30,804 nucleotides of DNA from a virus. Positions within the stretch are counted from its first letter, which is position 1; each line of letters opens with the position of its first letter. Below are positions 1 through 30,804 of the stretch, one piece after another. The notes beneath the pieces are model-generated. The model had not been told where the DNA came from. It made no database searches and worked only from the letters and a program-made list of their open reading frames with translations. Where the stretch lies: the IMG/VR virus record IMGVR_UViG_3300048838_001842, positions 1 to 30,804 of that record. One strand, given 5' to 3'. Both the position numbers and the translations under genes were made by a program.

Positions 1-924
1 CTACCCACCAAAATACTTCGCCCTCAGCGCCGCCTCCGAGCGGATCGCATACACCGACGCCGTGAACTCCGGCGAATAATGACCCAGCCACGCGCTAACC
101 GCGGCCAGGTCATGACCCCGATCCAACATCCGCAAGGCAAACGCGTGGCGAAACGCATGAGGATTGCATGGCCTCGCCGCCGGGATACCCGCGGCCGTTT
201 TCAGCCGCCGCAACACATGCTGCACCGCCACCGCCGACACGCCCCGAAACGGCTCCCGCAACGTCAACCACAAATCCTGTGGCCCACATTGCGGCCGATC
301 CGCCAACCATTCAGATAGAGCCTCGCCCTGGGTAGGCTCATGGCCAACATACACCGTCCGCGGCTTCTGGCCTTTCTCAACCACGTACAGCGCAAAGCAC
401 CGCCGGCCGCCGTCCACCCACTGCTCCAGATGATCCACCCGCATGGACAGCAAACCACCCAGCCGGCAACCACTCGCCCATAGCACGTCAATCAGAGCCC
501 GATCCCGCGTACACTCAGCCGCCTCCCGCATGGCCAGATAATCCGCCTCAACAACCGCCTTCGGCGCCGGCGGCGGCTCAGCCGCAAACGGTACCGGGCG
601 GGCCGGATTCAACGCCACCACCCCCGCCTGCAACAAACGGCCGAATAACGTTTTCACCGCCCTGAGGTAGCTGTTTGCCGTCACCGGCTTCATCCGCTCC
701 AGCAGAGACCGGTGCCAATCATAGACCTGCTGCGGCGCCACCTCATCAACATGCAGGTCCCCGATCATCGCGGCCAACGATCGCGCGCCGTCTTCCAACC
801 AGCGCAACGTACTCGCCGCCACATCCACAATGCCGCCGTTGACACGCGCGGCCAGTGCCGGCGCTTCCAGCAACCGCAATTGCCCGAAACGCCGATCCGT
901 ATCCGTAAACAACACCTGAGCCAC
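1..924 (-). CDS. int: Tyrosine integrase (phage site-specific recombinase)
   Basis: Catalyses integration and excision by conserved-Tyr strand exchange between attP and attB. The 307-residue protein has an N-terminal SAM-like core-binding domain (about residues 30-110) and a C-terminal catalytic domain (about 120-307). The full active-site set is visible: R154 (SGCRLGG), K184 (VEKGQK), H256-x-x-R259 (HAFRH), H282 (LGHYS) and nucleophile Y292. The ATG at 924 is preceded by AGGAGGTGG, a strong ribosome-binding site. It is divergent from the replication gene at 1058. Its stop codon is the first three bases of the window, so attP, normally close to int, would lie outside or at the circular junction with the excisionase-like gene at the other end. 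It has no N-terminal arm-binding domain of the large lambda type. Confidence 0.97.
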   Translation of the reverse strand: MAQVLFTDTDRRFGQLRLLEAPALAARVNGGIVDVAASTLRWLEDGARSLAAMIGDLHVDEVAPQQVYDWHRSLLERMKPVTANSYLRAVKTLFGRLLQAGVVALNPARPVPFAAEPPPAPKAVVEADYLAMREAAECTRDRALIDVLWASGCRLGGLLSMRVDHLEQWVDGGRRCFALYVVEKGQKPRTVYVGHEPTQGEALSEWLADRPQCGPQDLWLTLREPFRGVSAVAVQHVLRRLKTAAGIPAARPCNPHAFRHAFALRMLDRGHDLAAVSAWLGHYSPEFTASVYAIRSEAALRAKYFGG

Positions 925-1057: not shown

Positions 1058-1843
1058 ATGACGCCAGACAACGAACAGCTACAAACATTTCGCGCCATCC
1101 GCGGCGCCCCGGCCACTGTCCTCCTGCTCCTGTTCATCCGCGGCGTGTCCATGACCAACCGCGAGATTTGCCGTTTCACCGGCTACAGTGACAAGACCGT
1201 CACCGCCGCCAACGGCCTCCTCGAGAGCATCGGATTCCTGCAATACAACGGCCGCCAACACGGCTGGTCACTGCGCGCCGGCGTGCAACTGCCGCTGCCC
1301 CTCGGCGAAAGTTATCCACAGGTAGAGGCAAGTTATCCACAGGCTGTGGATAAAGAGATCGGAAATTCTCCGATCTACCCCCAACAGATCGGAAATTCTC
1401 CGATCTACGCTCCTACTACTACTACTACTATATATACTCCCCCTCTTTCCGAGTTAAGCAGTAGTAGCAGCAGCAAGAATGGCCACCTAGATCGGAGAAT
1501 TTCCGATCTAGGCCAAAACGGCCACACAGATCGGAAAAATTCCGATCTAGCCCCCGCCCCCACCGGCGCCGCCGTCACCTATTGGCTTCGCCGCGCCGGC
1601 GTGGGCGCCAACAGCCCCAAATACCGCCAACTCGCCGCCGCCGGCCTAGACCCCCACACCGTCCGCGCCCACGCCCTAGAACGGCTGGCCTGCCCTGACA
1701 CAATCCCGGTCGGCCTGTTCATCCGCAAGCTCGAAGACGGCGACCCCCCGCCCGCCCCGCGCTGCCCGGACTGCTACCGCCAGTTAGACGATTACGGCAA
1801 CTGTAACAACTACTTCTGTGAACCATCATCTGAGGAGGAATGA
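1058..1843 (+). CDS. Lambda-O-like replication initiator with embedded origin
   Basis: Probable origin-binding initiator that recruits the host helicase. Residues about 10-75 form a winged-helix domain (IRGVSMTNREICRFTGYSDK, then a GLLESIGFL recognition region). Residues about 85-170 are low-complexity linker, rich in Ser and Thr. Residues about 170-230 form a compact helical domain (YWLRRAGVGANSPKYRQLA to VGLFIRKLEDGDPPP) of the kind seen at the C-terminus of phage replisome organisers. A final CPDC...CNNYFC set (about 238-256) looks like a zinc ribbon. The linker DNA carries DnaA boxes and palindromes, annotated separately, an architecture known from lambda O. GGAGGT precedes the ATG. The family assignment rests on domain order and context; transcription regulation is an alternative role for the winged helix. 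Confidence 0.75.
   Translation: MTPDNEQLQTFRAIRGAPATVLLLLFIRGVSMTNREICRFTGYSDKTVTAANGLLESIGFLQYNGRQHGWSLRAGVQLPLPLGESYPQVEASYPQAVDKEIGNSPIYPQQIGNSPIYAPTTTTTIYTPPLSELSSSSSSKNGHLDRRISDLGQNGHTDRKNSDLAPAPTGAAVTYWLRRAGVGANSPKYRQLAAAGLDPHTVRAHALERLACPDTIPVGLFIRKLEDGDPPPAPRCPDCYRQLDDYGNCNNYFCEPSSEEE
1356..1376. repeat. Origin palindrome 1 (initiator-binding iteron)
   Basis: Inverted repeat AGATCGGA-AATTC-TCCGATCT, three bases after the last DnaA box. It encodes the peptide IGNSPIY in the initiator reading frame. The next copy starts 30 bp later, about three helical turns, so both sites face the same side of the helix. Confidence 0.8.
1386..1406. repeat. Origin palindrome 2
   Basis: Identical to palindrome 1 over all 21 bases and in the same reading phase. 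It ends immediately before the CTA-repeat / TATATA unwinding element. Confidence 0.8.
1489..1509. repeat. Origin palindrome 3 (reverse orientation)
   Basis: The exact reverse complement of palindromes 1 and 2, with extended arms (CCTAGATCGGA / TCCGATCTAGG, 1486-1512). It is read in another codon phase and encodes DRRISDL instead of IGNSPIY. Conservation is therefore of DNA rather than of peptide. Confidence 0.8.
1528..1548. repeat. Origin palindrome 4
   Basis: Arms AGATCGGAA / TTCCGATCT around a 3-nt AAA centre, 39 bp after palindrome 3. It encodes DRKNSDL. The centre differs from the other three copies, so the arms are the conserved part. Confidence 0.78.
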
Positions 1844-2618: not shown

Positions 2619-3398
2619 ATGTTTAACGACAACGACCAATTTGATCTCAGCGGCGAGGCCACCCGGAGCACTTTGGGGAGCGCCGCCTCATGGCTCGGTT
2701 GGGGGCTGCTCCTCGGCCTGGCCATCGTAACCGCCGTGCATGCCATCAGCATCACCCAGCACTACACCGGCCTCAGCGCCAACACCGGCGACGCCTTCGC
2801 CATGATCCGCATTGCCGGCGTCGTCCTGGCCGAGCTATTCGCCGTGGCCACCGCCGTCCTGCTGGCCACCAACACCCTCCGCGCCAGACAGAAGCCCATG
2901 GCCATGGCCGTCGAAATCACCTGGTTCCTGTTCGCCGCCATGAATCTGGTTAGCTCCTTCGCCGTTGAACACGGCGGCGAAATGCCGCATTTCGTGGGGA
3001 CATGGGTGCGCTATGGCCTGCCCGTGGCCGCCCTGATCATCGGCGTGCAGTTCTACATCATGCTCCGCCTCAACCCCGACGCCAAACGCCAGGCCGATCT
3101 GGCTGAGCTGGCCGAAAAGTTTGCCTATAGCCAACACAAGGCCACCGTCGAGGTGCTCAATAGCGAGCAGATGGAAGCGGTTTTACGCCAGGCCGCCTGG
3201 CAGAAGCTGCCCCGCACCGTCGGGCAAAAACTCAACCTCAGCGACGCCCAAATCCGCGCCCTAGAGCTGCAGGCCCCCGCCCTGCTGGATCTCAATCAGA
3301 ACGGCGTGCCCGACATCCACGAAAACCAACAAACCCAGCAAACCGCCTATGCCGCCGGCCCAAACGGCCACGGCCCGGCGGTCAACGGCCGCCATTAG
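2619..3398 (+). CDS. Four-helix membrane protein with cytoplasmic tail
   Basis: A 259-residue protein with four hydrophobic helices at about 24-45, 62-84, 96-115 and 129-149. A soluble tail of about 110 residues follows, with two amphipathic helices (160-195, 205-222) and a DLNQNGVPD loop (224-232) resembling an EF-hand or dockerin calcium loop. AGGAG lies in front of the ATG. I do not recognise the family. Its place in the early operon argues against a holin. A membrane anchor for replication or superinfection exclusion is possible but unproven. Confidence 0.8.
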   Translation: MFNDNDQFDLSGEATRSTLGSAASWLGWGLLLGLAIVTAVHAISITQHYTGLSANTGDAFAMIRIAGVVLAELFAVATAVLLATNTLRARQKPMAMAVEITWFLFAAMNLVSSFAVEHGGEMPHFVGTWVRYGLPVAALIIGVQFYIMLRLNPDAKRQADLAELAEKFAYSQHKATVEVLNSEQMEAVLRQAAWQKLPRTVGQKLNLSDAQIRALELQAPALLDLNQNGVPDIHENQQTQQTAYAAGPNGHGPAVNGRH

Positions 3399-22365: not shown

Positions 22366-24054
22366 TCAAAACGACCTCAGCCCACGCGACCGATACACCG
22401 ATTCACGCTGCCCCTGGCCCCCCACCACCGCCCGCTGCAACGCCATGAGTAAGCTAACCATGCCGTCGATCTTCTCCGTCGACTTGCCCTTATCCGGCTT
22501 TAGGTTGCCCGCCGGATCGCTCGTCGCCACCAGGTTATCAGCCATCCACGCCAACGCCGGGTTGCCCCCGTGGCTCAGCGCCCGCCTCTGAATCGCCACC
22601 TCCAACGTTTTCATGGCCGGGTTCATACTGACAAACCCCTGCCGAAACTCAACCATCGTGGCCCCCTCCTCCGTCAACGTGTTGCTGACCGACGTCGCAT
22701 TCCACGGGTCAAACGCGATCTCTTTGACTTGAAACCGCGCCATATCCGCCCGGATTTGGGCCAGGATGAACTCGTAATCCACCACATTACCCGGCGTCGT
22801 CTGCATCCACCCCTGCCGCACCCAGACATCATACGGCGCCCGATCCCGCTTAACCCGCTCCGCAATGTTTTCCTCCGGGATCCACAACCGCGCCAAAACA
22901 TCATACCGCGGCCCCTCCCCCCCCGCCTGAGGAAACACCCACACCAACGCCGTCACGTCCAACGTAGAGCTTAAGTCCAGGCCGCCCCAACACGGCCGCC
23001 CCACCAACGCCGCCTCATCAATCTCCCCCTGATTCCCGGCCCGCCACGCGTCCGGATCGATCCACCGCGTGCTAGCCTGAGTCCACACATTCAGCTCCTT
23101 TTGCAAAAACGAATTCAGCCGCGCCGGCATACCCAGCGCCACCCGCATCTTGTCCCGCATATCCTCCAGGCTCTTGCTAACCCCCAAATTCGGATTGGCC
23201 CGATACCACGCCGCCTCATCTTGCCAATCCTCCAACAGCCCATCCTCCCCCCGCTCAAGCGTGTAGATCAGCCCGTGCCAACTGTCATCCTCCAGCACGC
23301 CCGCCAACACCTTTTCTGTGTAGTCATGGAATTGCCAACACACCGACTGCCGATCGCTGCCCGCCGTCGTCACCACATACAACAACGATTGCCGCCGGCT
23401 ACCCGTGGCCGTCCTCAGCACGTCATACATATCGCCGTTAGGGTGCGCGTGCATCTCATCCAAAATTCCCCCATGCACATTCAACCCGTCCAACGTATGG
23501 CTATCCCGCCCCAACGGCTCAAACTTGCTAAACGTCTTTTCGCTATGGATGTTGTCCTTAACCAGGCTCAGCTCCCGCCCCAGCGCCGGCGACTGTTTCA
23601 CCATGCGCACCGCCTCTTGATGCACAATGCGCGCCTGCTCCCGCTTCGTCGCCGCCGTGTAAACCTCAGCCCCCGCCTCCCCGTCCGCCGCCAACAGATA
23701 CAACCCCACCCCCGCCCCCAGTGTGCTCTTGCCATTCTTGCGGCCCACCTCGAGATAGCTCATCCGAAACCGCCGCGTGCCGTCTGCCCGTTTCCACCCA
23801 AACAGATTCCAGAGGTGAAACTGCTGCCACGGCTCCAGCGCCAAAGTGGTCCCCGCCCATTCCCCCTTGCTATGTTTCAACACCCCATAGAACGCAATGG
23901 CCACCTTTGCCGCCCGCTCATCAAACCACAACCCCCGCCCCGGCCCCTCAACCAGATCGCGCCGGTGGCGCTCGCAACCCAGCCGCACCCACCGGCACTC
24001 CGCCCGCCGCCCCTCCAAAACATCATCCACGTACCGCTCGGCGTCAAAATCCAC
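22366..24054 (-). CDS. terL: Terminase large subunit
   Basis: A 562-residue packaging motor. The ATPase domain shows the Walker A-like motif VGRKNGKST (103-111), Walker B ILDE (197-200) and the coupling motif VVTTAGS. The nuclease domain has likely metal-binding acids D360 (GLDLSSTLD), D449 (AFDPWN) and D530 (KIDGMVSLLMA). It is the Terminase_1/YmfN-like family common in HK97-type phages. The start is GTG 24054, five bases after the stop of the small membrane gene. The small subunit is over 4 kb upstream, separated by the ParB/ABC-GNAT cassette. Confidence 0.96.
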   Translation of the reverse strand: MDFDAERYVDDVLEGRRAECRWVRLGCERHRRDLVEGPGRGLWFDERAAKVAIAFYGVLKHSKGEWAGTTLALEPWQQFHLWNLFGWKRADGTRRFRMSYLEVGRKNGKSTLGAGVGLYLLAADGEAGAEVYTAATKREQARIVHQEAVRMVKQSPALGRELSLVKDNIHSEKTFSKFEPLGRDSHTLDGLNVHGGILDEMHAHPNGDMYDVLRTATGSRRQSLLYVVTTAGSDRQSVCWQFHDYTEKVLAGVLEDDSWHGLIYTLERGEDGLLEDWQDEAAWYRANPNLGVSKSLEDMRDKMRVALGMPARLNSFLQKELNVWTQASTRWIDPDAWRAGNQGEIDEAALVGRPCWGGLDLSSTLDVTALVWVFPQAGGEGPRYDVLARLWIPEENIAERVKRDRAPYDVWVRQGWMQTTPGNVVDYEFILAQIRADMARFQVKEIAFDPWNATSVSNTLTEEGATMVEFRQGFVSMNPAMKTLEVAIQRRALSHGGNPALAWMADNLVATSDPAGNLKPDKGKSTEKIDGMVSLLMALQRAVVGGQGQRESVYRSRGLRSF

Positions 24055-24727: not shown

Positions 24728-25135
24728 CTATCCTCCATTGCCCCGCCGATCCGGCAACCGCCCCCGGGTGCTGACATCCGTCTGCCCCAGCAACGGCCCA
24801 TCCGTCCCGTCCACAATATCCTCAGCCCGCAACACCCCCGCCTCAATCAGCCGCTCAATCGTCGGCCACCGCACCGATTCCCCCACCACCCCCGCCCCAT
24901 CCACCAACACCACCACCGGCCACCGCCGCCCAAACTCCCCCCGCCGCAACCGCCGCTCCAACCGCCACCCCGCCCCCAGCAACCCCGCAACCCGCGCCTG
25001 ATACTCACTCAACTCAGCCATATTACGCTCCACGGGCGGGGCAAGGGGCCCGCAAACACCGGCCCACCATACAGCCGCCCCCCGCCTCAGCTCCTCAACA
25101 TCCTCATCACCGTCCGGAAATAGCGGCGTGCTCAT
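24728..25135 (-). CDS. Protein of unknown function downstream of formyltransferase
   Basis: A 135-residue protein. Residues about 40-110 form an alpha/beta region (RVAGLLGAGWRLERRLRRGEFGRRWPVVVLVDGAGVVGESVRWPTIERLIEAGVLRAEDIVDG) that may be a small nucleic-acid-binding or enzyme-associated domain. It overlaps the formyltransferase by 29 bases. ATG 25135 has a GAGGTG site; an internal ATG at 25021 also has GGAG, so a shorter protein of 97 residues is possible. Confidence 0.55.
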   Translation of the reverse strand: MSTPLFPDGDEDVEELRRGAAVWWAGVCGPLAPPVERNMAELSEYQARVAGLLGAGWRLERRLRRGEFGRRWPVVVLVDGAGVVGESVRWPTIERLIEAGVLRAEDIVDGTDGPLLGQTDVSTRGRLPDRRGNGG

Positions 25136-25793
25136 CCACAATCACCTCATACCCCGCCGGCGCCGGCCCAATGCGCGGCAAATCCGGCCGAAACAACGGC
25201 TCCCGTTCCCAACTCGGCTCCCACGTGGCCAACGCCTCATCCTGAGGAACCATTACAATCCGCCCCGCGTCCAGGTCCCCCAACGCCTCCCCCAGCAGCC
25301 GTATCCCCAACCCCCGCAACTCCCGGCGCCACAACTCGCCCGCCGTATCCCCCGGCCGAATCCAGCACCACGCCTGCCGGGCGATAGGCCCCGCGTCAAC
25401 GCCCTCCGTCAACCAATACACCGTCCCCCCCGTCACCGGGTCACCCAACTTGATCGCCCACCGCACCGCGTCCCGGCCCCTGTGCCGCGGCAAGAGCGAC
25501 GGGTGATACCCGATCCCCCCCAGCCGCGTCCGGCCTAACGTCTTAGCGCTGATAAAATCATGCGAATGAGCCGCCACAATCAGATCAACCCCGCCCGGCA
25601 ACGCCCCCGCGCTCAGCCCGCCCGCCTGTAGCAGCGGCAACCCCGCCCCGGCCGCGGCGCCAAACAGCAAGTCCTCACGCCCGTCTGCCTGAGCACGGGG
25701 CGCAACCACCAGCGCCACCTCGTCCCCCCGCCCCAGCAGCAACCCCAGCGCCAATCGCCCAAACGTCCGCTGCCCACACAACACGACCTTCAT
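25107..25793 (-). CDS. Formyltransferase-fold enzyme
   Basis: A 228-residue protein of the 10-formyl-THF-dependent formyltransferase fold. The Rossmann-like N-terminus (MKVVLCGQRTFGRLAL) and the core motif HPSLLPRHRGRDAVRWAI..GDPVTGGTVYWLTEGVDAGPI (97-137) are clear, with H97 and D133 present. The usual catalytic Asn two residues before the His (N-x-H) is replaced by G95. The enzyme lacks the C-terminal tRNA-binding domain expected of a full Met-tRNA formyltransferase (about 310 residues), so initiator tRNA is an unlikely substrate. ATG overlaps the ABC-GNAT stop by four bases (ATGA), so it is coupled to it; it may act on the same substrate. Confidence 0.85.
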   Translation of the reverse strand: MKVVLCGQRTFGRLALGLLLGRGDEVALVVAPRAQADGREDLLFGAAAGAGLPLLQAGGLSAGALPGGVDLIVAAHSHDFISAKTLGRTRLGGIGYHPSLLPRHRGRDAVRWAIKLGDPVTGGTVYWLTEGVDAGPIARQAWCWIRPGDTAGELWRRELRGLGIRLLGEALGDLDAGRIVMVPQDEALATWEPSWEREPLFRPDLPRIGPAPAGYEVIVDEHAAISGR

Positions 25794-26926
25794 GACCGCT
25801 CCCCGAGATACCGAAACCCCTGCACCGCCCGCATGTGCCCCCCATAGCCCGTTCGTTTGGTTGTCTTCCCCGTTGGGCTTTGGGGCCCCAATACGTCTGA
25901 CATCCTGATTCGCCGGGCGCTCTGCGCCTTATTTATACCGAACATCACCGCGCTTACCTGAGTCCACTTCCGATCCCGCCGCAAGGCCGCGCATAATCCC
26001 GGGTGGCTTGTGTGAAACAACATGGGCATAGGCTTGCCATACCTGTTTTCACCCCGCAGCCAGAGCTCACAAACCCCATTCAGGAACCGCATACCCACCC
26101 CCGCCCCCTGCCATTCCGGCATAACCACCAGCCGGCACGCCCGCCCCTCCCGCAGGCCCGGCCGCGTGCTAACCGCCACATGGGCCACCGGCTCACCCTC
26201 TACCGCGCCCACGTAATAGCTCGGCGCCACCATTCGCGGGATCTTTAGATAGTGATGTGGCTCAAACAACGGCCAGTAATGCCCATCCGTCTGCCAAAGC
26301 TCCAGCTCGAACCGTGGGCGCCGCCAAAGCCCCCTCCCGCTGTACACCCCCGTTGCCGTGTCCAGCACCCAATCCGGCTCCAACCAATCCACAATGTCAT
26401 AATGGCAACTCAGCAGCACCGCCTGCCCCGTCCCCCGCCGCCACGCCTTGCCAAACGCCAACGCCCCCATCCGCGCGATCTGCCGATCCACAACCGACGT
26501 AAACTCATCCACCACCACCCGCGCCGGCGCGTCAATTACTACCCGCGCCAGGTCCGCCCGAAACCGCTCGCCGTTGCTCAGCACCCCATAAGGCCTCAGC
26601 CACGTCGGCACATCCCCCAACCCCACCGCTGCCAATGCCGCCGTTACCTCATCGAACGGCCGGCCCGGCCCAATCGCCTCAATGATCGGCCCCTCCGGCC
26701 ACTCACCGTCATAGAACGCCCCGCCGCCCCAGAACGCCCGGCCCAGGCTTGTCTTACCGCTCCCACTGGGTCCCACAATCAACCCAATTCGCCAATCATC
26801 ATCCTCAACCGGCAACTCCACCGCCAAATCAAAATTGGCCCCCGTCTCCACATTGAACAGGCTTTTAACCCGGGCCGCCCGGTACGACGTAAAATCCTCG
26901 CAACTGTTGTGAACCTCAATCCTCAT
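25790..26926 (-). CDS. ABC-ATPase fused to a GNAT domain (Mom-like candidate)
   Basis: A 378-residue two-domain protein; positions are given in a numbering that begins six residues earlier, at the GTG at 26944. The N-terminal half is a soluble ABC-type ATPase: Walker A GPSGSGKTS (58-66), signature LSNGE (122-126), Walker B VVVDEF (143-148) and switch His H181. The C-terminal half (about 205-384) is an acetyltransferase fold with LFEPHHYLKIPRMVAPSYYVG, the cofactor-loop pattern RLVVMPEWQGAGVGMRFL (271-288) and HTSHPGL. There are no membrane segments and no partner permease, so it is not a transporter. Mu Mom, which hypermodifies adenine, is itself a GNAT-fold enzyme. ATG 26926 overlaps the ParB-like stop by four bases. 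Confidence 0.85.
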   Translation of the reverse strand: MRIEVHNSCEDFTSYRAARVKSLFNVETGANFDLAVELPVEDDDWRIGLIVGPSGSGKTSLGRAFWGGGAFYDGEWPEGPIIEAIGPGRPFDEVTAALAAVGLGDVPTWLRPYGVLSNGERFRADLARVVIDAPARVVVDEFTSVVDRQIARMGALAFGKAWRRGTGQAVLLSCHYDIVDWLEPDWVLDTATGVYSGRGLWRRPRFELELWQTDGHYWPLFEPHHYLKIPRMVAPSYYVGAVEGEPVAHVAVSTRPGLREGRACRLVVMPEWQGAGVGMRFLNGVCELWLRGENRYGKPMPMLFHTSHPGLCAALRRDRKWTQVSAVMFGINKAQSARRIRMSDVLGPQSPTGKTTKRTGYGGHMRAVQGFRYLGERS

Positions 26927-27480
26927 ACCGTCACCACCCGGCACTTAAGCCCGCGCGCCGTCAAATCGTTATAGACCGATTCCTGCTCATCCTCCGAGGC
27001 ACACATAACCGTAACCGCCCATTGCGGCGCATACTCAAAACCGTTCTCGCCCGGGCCCCCAGACGCCTCCAGCAACGTAGCAATTTCCGAAGCGTCAAAG
27101 CCCGAGTAAACCTCATCCGGGTCCAACGCCTGCAGCAGCTCCCCCAACCCCTCAACATCCCACCGGCTCAAATCCCCCACCCGGTTATCCGCGATCCCAA
27201 ACCCCGCCGCCGCCGCCGGGCTATCCTCAACCCAAACCACCGCGATATGACTCCAGCCCAACGCCCGCGCTGCCCTCAGCGTCCCGTTGCCCGCCTCAAC
27301 CTTGCCCCCCTCCAGCCGGTTAGCCACAATCGGCTTACGCTGCCCATACTGCCGCAACGACGCCCCAATCCGATCCACCGCATGCCCCGTCCGCACATTC
27401 GCCGGGTCCTCATGCACCTCATCAATCCCCACCGCCAACCCCCGCAACCCCTCCGCGATATAGCTCAGCTCAGCAGCCAT
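26923..27480 (-). CDS. ParB/Srx-like DNA-associated protein
   Basis: A 185-residue protein with a ParB N-terminal-like domain: NVRTGHAVDRIGASLRQYGQRKPIVANRLEGG, the nucleotide-binding GxGxxR motif (GNGTLR, 64-69) and ADNRVGDLSRWD (97-108). The C-terminal part (about 153-185, QWAVTVMCASEDEQESVYNDLTARG) is a small beta-alpha-beta domain rather than a ParB dimerisation helix. No HTH is seen and no ParA is encoded, so chromosome or plasmid partition is unlikely. It overlaps the preceding gene by 11 bases and the ABC-GNAT gene by four, marking a coupled pair. Confidence 0.88.
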   Translation of the reverse strand: MAAELSYIAEGLRGLAVGIDEVHEDPANVRTGHAVDRIGASLRQYGQRKPIVANRLEGGKVEAGNGTLRAARALGWSHIAVVWVEDSPAAAAGFGIADNRVGDLSRWDVEGLGELLQALDPDEVYSGFDASEIATLLEASGGPGENGFEYAPQWAVTVMCASEDEQESVYNDLTARGLKCRVVTV

Positions 27481-29846: not shown

Positions 29847-29853
29847 GCATTCT

Positions 29854-29881
29854 AGTATAAAGAATAATGTTTCATTATGAA
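29854..29881 (-). promoter_or_regulatory. Leftward late-operon promoter
   Basis: Minus-strand TTCATA (29881-29876, 4/6 of consensus), a 16-bp spacer and TATACT (29859-29854, 5/6). The start codon at 29846 begins 7 nt after the -10, so transcription would start at or next to the ATG. The segment is AT-rich against a GC-rich background. Confidence 0.6.
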
Positions 29882-29901
29882 ACACACTATGTTATAGTGT
29901 G
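29868..29901. promoter_or_regulatory. Two adjacent inverted-repeat operators
   Basis: TGTTTCAT-T-ATGAAACA (29868-29884) overlaps the -35 element. CACACTAT-GTT-ATAGTGTG (29883-29901) lies just upstream. Both have perfect 8-bp arms, and the first is a 17-bp operator-sized palindrome. This layout fits repressor and activator binding at the late promoter. Confidence 0.65.
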
Positions 29902-29930: not shown

Positions 29931-29969
29931 CAAAAGAGCCGGCTGCTTTGAAAACAGCCGGCTCTTTTG
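29931..29969. terminator. Bidirectional intrinsic terminator
   Basis: Perfect 15-bp stem CAAAAGAGCCGGCTG / CAGCCGGCTCTTTTG with a 9-nt loop and T-tracts on both strands. It separates the secreted Excalibur gene from the leftward operon promoter, so that gene is an independent transcription unit. Confidence 0.92.
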
Positions 29970-30561: not shown

Positions 30562-30590
30562 TTGACATTGCCACCCGCGTCGCTTATCAT
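30562..30590 (+). promoter_or_regulatory. Near-consensus sigma70 promoter
   Basis: TTGACA (30562-30567), a 17-bp spacer, TATCAT (30585-30590). The perfect -35 and spacing make it the strongest promoter seen in the window. The excisionase-like ATG at 30598 is 7 nt after the -10. A TCATGT-CCA-ACATGA inverted repeat (30587-30601) overlaps the -10 and start codon and may be an operator. Confidence 0.75.
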
Positions 30591-30597
30591 GTCCAAC

Positions 30598-30804
30598 ATG
30601 ACAAATGCGAAAGACAAGCCAACTGAATGGCTGACAATCACGGAGGCCGCCAAACGCCTCGGCGTGAGCGGTAAAACCGTATGGCGCTGGATTGACGACG
30701 GGCTATTCCCCGGCACAATCCGCCTCAGCCCTCAGCCCAAAAGCGAGTTTCGTATCCCGCTGGCCGCCATCGAACGCTTCGAAGAGAGCCGCAAAGTCAA
30801 GTAG
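30598..30804 (+). CDS. Excisionase/MerR-like HTH protein
   Basis: A 68-residue protein with an HTH_17-type winged helix: WLTITEAAKRLGVSGKTVWRWIDDGLFPGTIRLS, then SEFRIPLAAIERFEESRK. These proteins act as recombination directionality factors or small repressors. ATG 30598 is preferred over 30589, because the promoter would start transcription at 30597-30598, giving a leaderless mRNA. Its TAG is the last codon in the window. If the genome is circular, it would face the integrase, with attP between them. Confidence 0.8.
   Translation: MTNAKDKPTEWLTITEAAKRLGVSGKTVWRWIDDGLFPGTIRLSPQPKSEFRIPLAAIERFEESRKVK

Follow-up and report, generated by a model that had tools for sequence, protein, structure and literature searches.

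A candidate theta-type replication origin within the linker DNA of a predicted winged-helix initiator gene in a temperate phage

The lambda O initiator gene carries in its middle four symmetric repeats of about 19 bp, which are bound by O dimers and adjoined by an AT-rich unwinding region (PMC3985674, PMC5043065). The gene of the phage SPP1 origin-binding protein gp38 holds oriL, made up of repeats and an AT-rich unwinding region; DnaA is not mentioned in the main text of the paper on gp38 and oriL (PMC6316719). The Rep protein of pSK41 (RepA_N family) has a winged-helix N-terminal domain and a separate C-terminal domain, and four Rep boxes lie mid-gene, where the encoded linker peptide is dispensable; in the staphylococcal plasmids no DnaA boxes have been detected, according to a review (PMC5703833). 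The basal unwinding system (BUS) of bacterial oriC consists of a DnaA box and a DnaA-trio (PMC8287927, PMC6669920), and a published search for such trios allowed a spacer between box and trio of at most 16 bp (PMC8287927).

The window analysed here is the whole of virus record IMGVR_UViG_3300048838_001842 (30,804 bases, 63% GC). The phage is temperate and siphovirus-like, and portal and tape measure genes were found in profile searches of the record. The other genes that bear on the argument are:

1-924, minus strand: integrase
1058-1843, plus strand: open reading frame (ORF) P0001, 261 aa, the proposed initiator, divergent from the integrase gene
22366-24054, minus strand: large terminase
26923-27480: ParB-like protein, 185 aa
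28152-28718: small terminase, P27-type
30562-30804: excisionase-like HTH_17 protein, terminating at the right edge of the record

The integrase stop lies at base 1 and the HTH_17 frame stops at the final base, so that the record has seemingly been trimmed at gene boundaries. Relatives of the terminase occur in genomes of Pyramidobacter, Gemmatimonadales and Piscirickettsia-type bacteria. Among the proteins that were scanned, none could be recognised as a replicative helicase, a primase or a polymerase, so replication of the phage probably relies on host machinery.

P0001 comprises a winged helix at about residues 8-80, a low-complexity linker (residues 82-165) and C-terminal helices with a CxxC...C...C tail. 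The DNA that encodes the linker contains the following elements:

1312-1320, plus strand: DnaA box 1, exact TTATCCACA
1333-1341, plus strand: DnaA box 2, exact TTATCCACA, 21 bp past box 1
1345-1353, minus strand: DnaA box 3, exact TTATCCACA, inverted, 12 bp past box 2
1356-1376: palindrome 1, AGATCGGAAATTCTCCGATCT, proposed initiator site
1386-1406: palindrome 2, identical in sequence to palindrome 1
1413-1436: (CTA)6TATATA, proposed unwinding element, DnaA-trio-like
1489-1509: palindrome 3, AGATCGGAGAATTTCCGATCT, the sequence of palindromes 1 and 2 reverse-complemented without a mismatch
1528-1548: palindrome 4, AGATCGGAAAAATTCCGATCT, core AAAAT
1386-1509: larger inverted arrangement of palindrome 2 plus the CTA tract against an AGC/AGT tract plus palindrome 3, with 45-nt arms that are 76% complementary

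We read positions 1312-1548 as a theta-type phage replication origin inside the linker DNA of its own initiator gene, with a probability of roughly 0.8. A first-pass annotation of the sequence had proposed an origin of this kind from the palindromes, having overlooked the DnaA boxes immediately upstream in the same linker; the three boxes, the location in the AT-richest 200 bp of the record and a related phage with the same layout now support it.

Like ori-lambda, the locus has repeated symmetric sites within the proposed initiator gene, beside an AT-rich stretch. It differs from ori-lambda in that the palindromes lie on both sides of that stretch and three exact DnaA boxes are added, whereas a P-like helicase loader was not recognised in this phage and nothing in the record matches the lambda O family (Phage_rep_O, PF04492) at E<=10. 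With the RepA_N proteins P0001 shares a winged-helix N-terminal domain (fold predicted), central repeats and a separate C-terminal domain, but it has no match to PF06970 at E<=10, and the three DnaA boxes set the phage apart from the staphylococcal plasmids. The likeness to SPP1 lies in the proposed placement of the origin within the gene of a phage origin-binding protein; SPP1, however, codes for both a helicase loader (gp39) and a helicase (gp40), and neither was recognised here. Lambda O/ori had been named as the known precedent, unrelated in sequence. This is correct as far as it goes, but lambda is not the only precedent, since SPP1 gp38/oriL and pSK41 Rep share the layout. The arrangement of an origin in its initiator gene is thus already known; what is new is the presence of DnaA boxes in the same coding stretch, in the gene of a protein outside the tested initiator families.

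The N-terminal domain of P0001, annotated earlier as a winged helix, is modelled as such by AlphaFold2 from the single sequence, with moderate confidence (pLDDT 67). Fold comparison gave Z of about 10 to many winged helices, a generic result in which transcription regulators predominate and MarR/IclR-like winged helices are closest; the lack of initiators in these match lists carries no weight either way. For the C-terminal part, helices and a cysteine pattern are predicted with low confidence. P0001 had no match above cut-off in Pfam, PHROG, NCBIfam or the PDB sequences, and phrog_7498, a DnaD-like phage helicase loader, has no match in the record, with matches in G002 and G003. P0001 is probably the initiator of the candidate origin.

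Homologues of P0001 were found in none of the viral contigs, genome contigs, phages and plasmids searched, and none came from searches with either of its domains, with the integrase or with the gene at 2619-3398. Because no homologue of P0001 was found, the case for conservation is one of analogy.

The first-pass annotation had described four palindromes in two pairs around a CTA-repeat/TATATA stretch, and an exact search bears this out. The pattern AGATCGGA-N5-TCCGATCT occurs exactly four times in the record, each time exact, and the count does not change when three mismatches are allowed; in shuffled sequence 0.07 palindromes are expected, with a maximum of one. Each palindrome measures 21 bp, with perfect 8-bp arms and a 5-nt core, and one pair lies on each side of (CTA)6TATATA. 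Repeat comparison confirmed that reverse-complementing palindrome 3 gives exactly the sequence of the first two, which fits a two-fold symmetric site in double-stranded DNA. The encoded peptides (EIGNSPIY, QIGNSPIY, LDRRISDL and TDRKNSDL for palindromes 1 to 4) differ, as had been noted; the cause, however, is the reading frame and not the orientation, the arms being identical on both strands. Palindromes 1 and 2 are read in codon phase 1 and palindromes 3 and 4 in phase 2, and because the pairs are read in different phases the repeated unit is the DNA and not the peptide. The spacings of 30, 103 and 39 are non-uniform in helical turns, which counts against the origin reading. Owing to the eight GATC sites that lie in the palindromes, GATC is denser here than in any other 200 bp of the record. 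AGATCGGA equals the 8 nt with which the TruSeq adapter begins; an Illumina adapter artefact was ruled out, as no 12-nt adapter stretch is present and the copies lie within an open frame. In viral contigs the exact palindrome was found in 21 contigs, in single copies, which is about the chance level for so large a collection.

Perfect 8-bp stems with 5-nt loops could also form in RNA, and the palindromes might then be mRNA hairpins bound by a regulatory protein. We hold this to be extremely improbable: palindrome 3 is inverted, with a loop unlike that of palindromes 1 and 2, so that the copies are the same only as a double-stranded site; the stems are identical and do not covary; and no curated RNA family scored over its cut-off. 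An Rfam match to MIR8742 lay far under its cut-off and was dismissed as a by-product of the inverted repeat.

Two-fold symmetric sites would also suit a dimeric repressor. The palindromes could accordingly be operators, with P0001 as an autoregulator or a lysogeny repressor whose binding sites are in its own gene, beside the divergent integrase; divergence from an integrase is a usual location for regulators, and the closest folds are those of MarR/IclR-like proteins. The sites begin about 300 bp into the coding region, however, where a sigma-70-type promoter was not found, and operators would account neither for three DnaA boxes of exact consensus nor for the AT-rich CTA tract nor for the same design in the related phage. 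We therefore regard this explanation as unlikely.

The linker is of low complexity and palindromes 3 and 4 sit within a 39-nt tandem duplication, as would be expected if repeats and poly-Thr/poly-Ser codons had expanded neutrally in a disordered linker, without any function of the DNA. Such an origin of the repeats appears very improbable in view of the pattern of divergence. In every one of the four copies the arms have remained identical and palindromic, whereas the 24 flanking bases show 11-17 differences, and the two pairs stand in different frames; within the 39-nt repeat, 0 of 16 arm positions differ against 7 of 23 elsewhere (p=0.016). Codon choice points the same way. With the linker peptide fixed and codons drawn according to the phage's own usage, 200,000 back-translations, which gauge codon choice only because the peptide is held fixed, yielded three DnaA boxes twice and a (CTA)5 tract twice. 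Three palindromes of the 8-5-8 type arose in five of these trials and never more than three, against five in the real DNA when the box 2/box 3 pair is counted. The GC3 of the linker is 0.43, the minimum among the 283 gene windows compared being 0.52. It had been proposed earlier that selection must act on the DNA; because the three boxes arose in only two trials and the observed palindrome count in none, selection does appear to act on the linker DNA itself.

The three DnaA boxes, clustered in 42 bp, are the only exact TTATCCACA boxes in the whole 30.8 kb, so that the locus has the clustered exact boxes of an origin; the peptide SYPQVEASYPQAVDK encoded there is merely their translation. At 55% AT, in a genome of 63% GC, positions 1350-1549 exceed every other 200-bp stretch of the record in AT content, and 1410-1439 is tied for the second-weakest 30-bp duplex. 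A GC-skew peak or switch at 1300-1550, suggested as a check on the origin, is absent; the skew is negative over the entire record and so lends the origin no support. The region resembles the BUS in that its DnaA boxes have in their neighbourhood a CTA repeat, complementary to 3'-GAT-5' trios, that leads into AT-rich DNA, and (CTA)6 at 1413-1430 provides at least three trinucleotides of the 3'-GAT-5' type. It differs in the spacer: the nearest exact box, box 3, is 59 bp from the tract, against the limit of 16 bp, and a scan for degenerate boxes (at least 6 of 9 matching) found none within 16 bp of it. The distance of 59 bp is the reason why the tract is not filed as a DnaA-trio.

The three-box pattern with its 21/12 spacing was found in viral contigs at five loci, where the clusters fall in no ORF of 100 aa; the spacing by itself therefore does not mark a lineage. 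A triplet with the same spacing lies between phage genes at L005:6018-6059. L005 was dropped as a relative of P0001, its match consisting of the intergenic DnaA-box DNA alone.

A ParB-like protein is encoded by the phage and centromere sites can be repeated palindromes; the palindromes might accordingly serve another phage protein in partition (as a parS-like site) or in packaging. The ParB-like protein is short, though, with ParB-like families linked to methylases and nucleases among its best matches, and ParA was not seen in the phage. The genes of both terminase subunits are distant from the palindromes, and the DnaA boxes would again be unexplained; this explanation is thus highly unlikely.

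Contigs L034 and L065 were fetched by their terminase (51% identical) and not by their boxes. Each carries a DnaD-like winged-helix gene:

L034, 123-878: ORF of 251 aa
L065, 2154-2909: ORF of 251 aa

As the two ORFs are identical, they count as one case. Their N-terminal half matches phrog_7498 (E=3e-7), and the protein does not align with P0001. The linker DNA contains three DnaA-type boxes, TGTGGAAAA, at spacings of 11 and 12 and in two reading frames (CGK, VEK, VEN), as well as 18-bp inverted repeats, of which a direct copy matching at 15 of 18 positions was seen by eye upstream, at 525-542. None of 50,000 back-translations of this linker gave the three boxes. In the DNA surveyed for this feature, P0001 and the L034/L065 case were the only ORFs of at least 100 aa with three clustered boxes. 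The design is the same as that of P0001 in unrelated sequence, and judged by sequence the gene is probably a second origin within an initiator gene. That a related phage has an unrelated protein and unrelated sites in a common layout suggests that what selection repeats is the placement in the linker of a winged-helix initiator.

For the origin in P0001, the following sequence of events may be envisaged. The winged-helix N-terminal domain would bind the four 21-bp palindromes as dimers, and host DnaA, to judge from the exact consensus, would bind the three upstream boxes. Their joint action would bend the DNA and unwind the AT-rich (CTA)6TATATA between the palindrome pairs, after which the C-terminal domain, DnaA or both could recruit the host helicase and primase. 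The linker peptide probably needs flexibility only, and its DNA would therefore be free to carry sites. A more elaborate proposal is that of a two-sided origin, entirely inside the initiator linker, in which the winged-helix protein, bound to the flanking palindromes, stands in for a trio-proximal DnaA box and delivers host DnaA to the DnaA-trio-like tract; with the DnaD-like gene of L034/L065 it would form a recurring class of phage initiator genes that carry their own sites plus host DnaA boxes. We put this forward tentatively and consider it rather doubtful. Boxes and palindromes in different frames of one ORF may serve as a signature for initiators in phages without recognisable replication genes.

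Some other features of the record deserve mention. At 25107-26944, a formyltransferase lies beside an ABC-ATPase-like/GNAT fusion (phrog_11143, unknown function, E=1.6e-142), an unusual cargo adjoining the packaging genes. A 38-nt repeat of 95% identity (2123-2160 and 2447-2484) spans the ends of two successive small genes of the early region. Finally, an inverted repeat of 19 bp with a gap of 1 nt at 29931-29969, close to the 50 bp with the highest AT content in the record (29849-29898), is possibly a terminator or a regulatory site.
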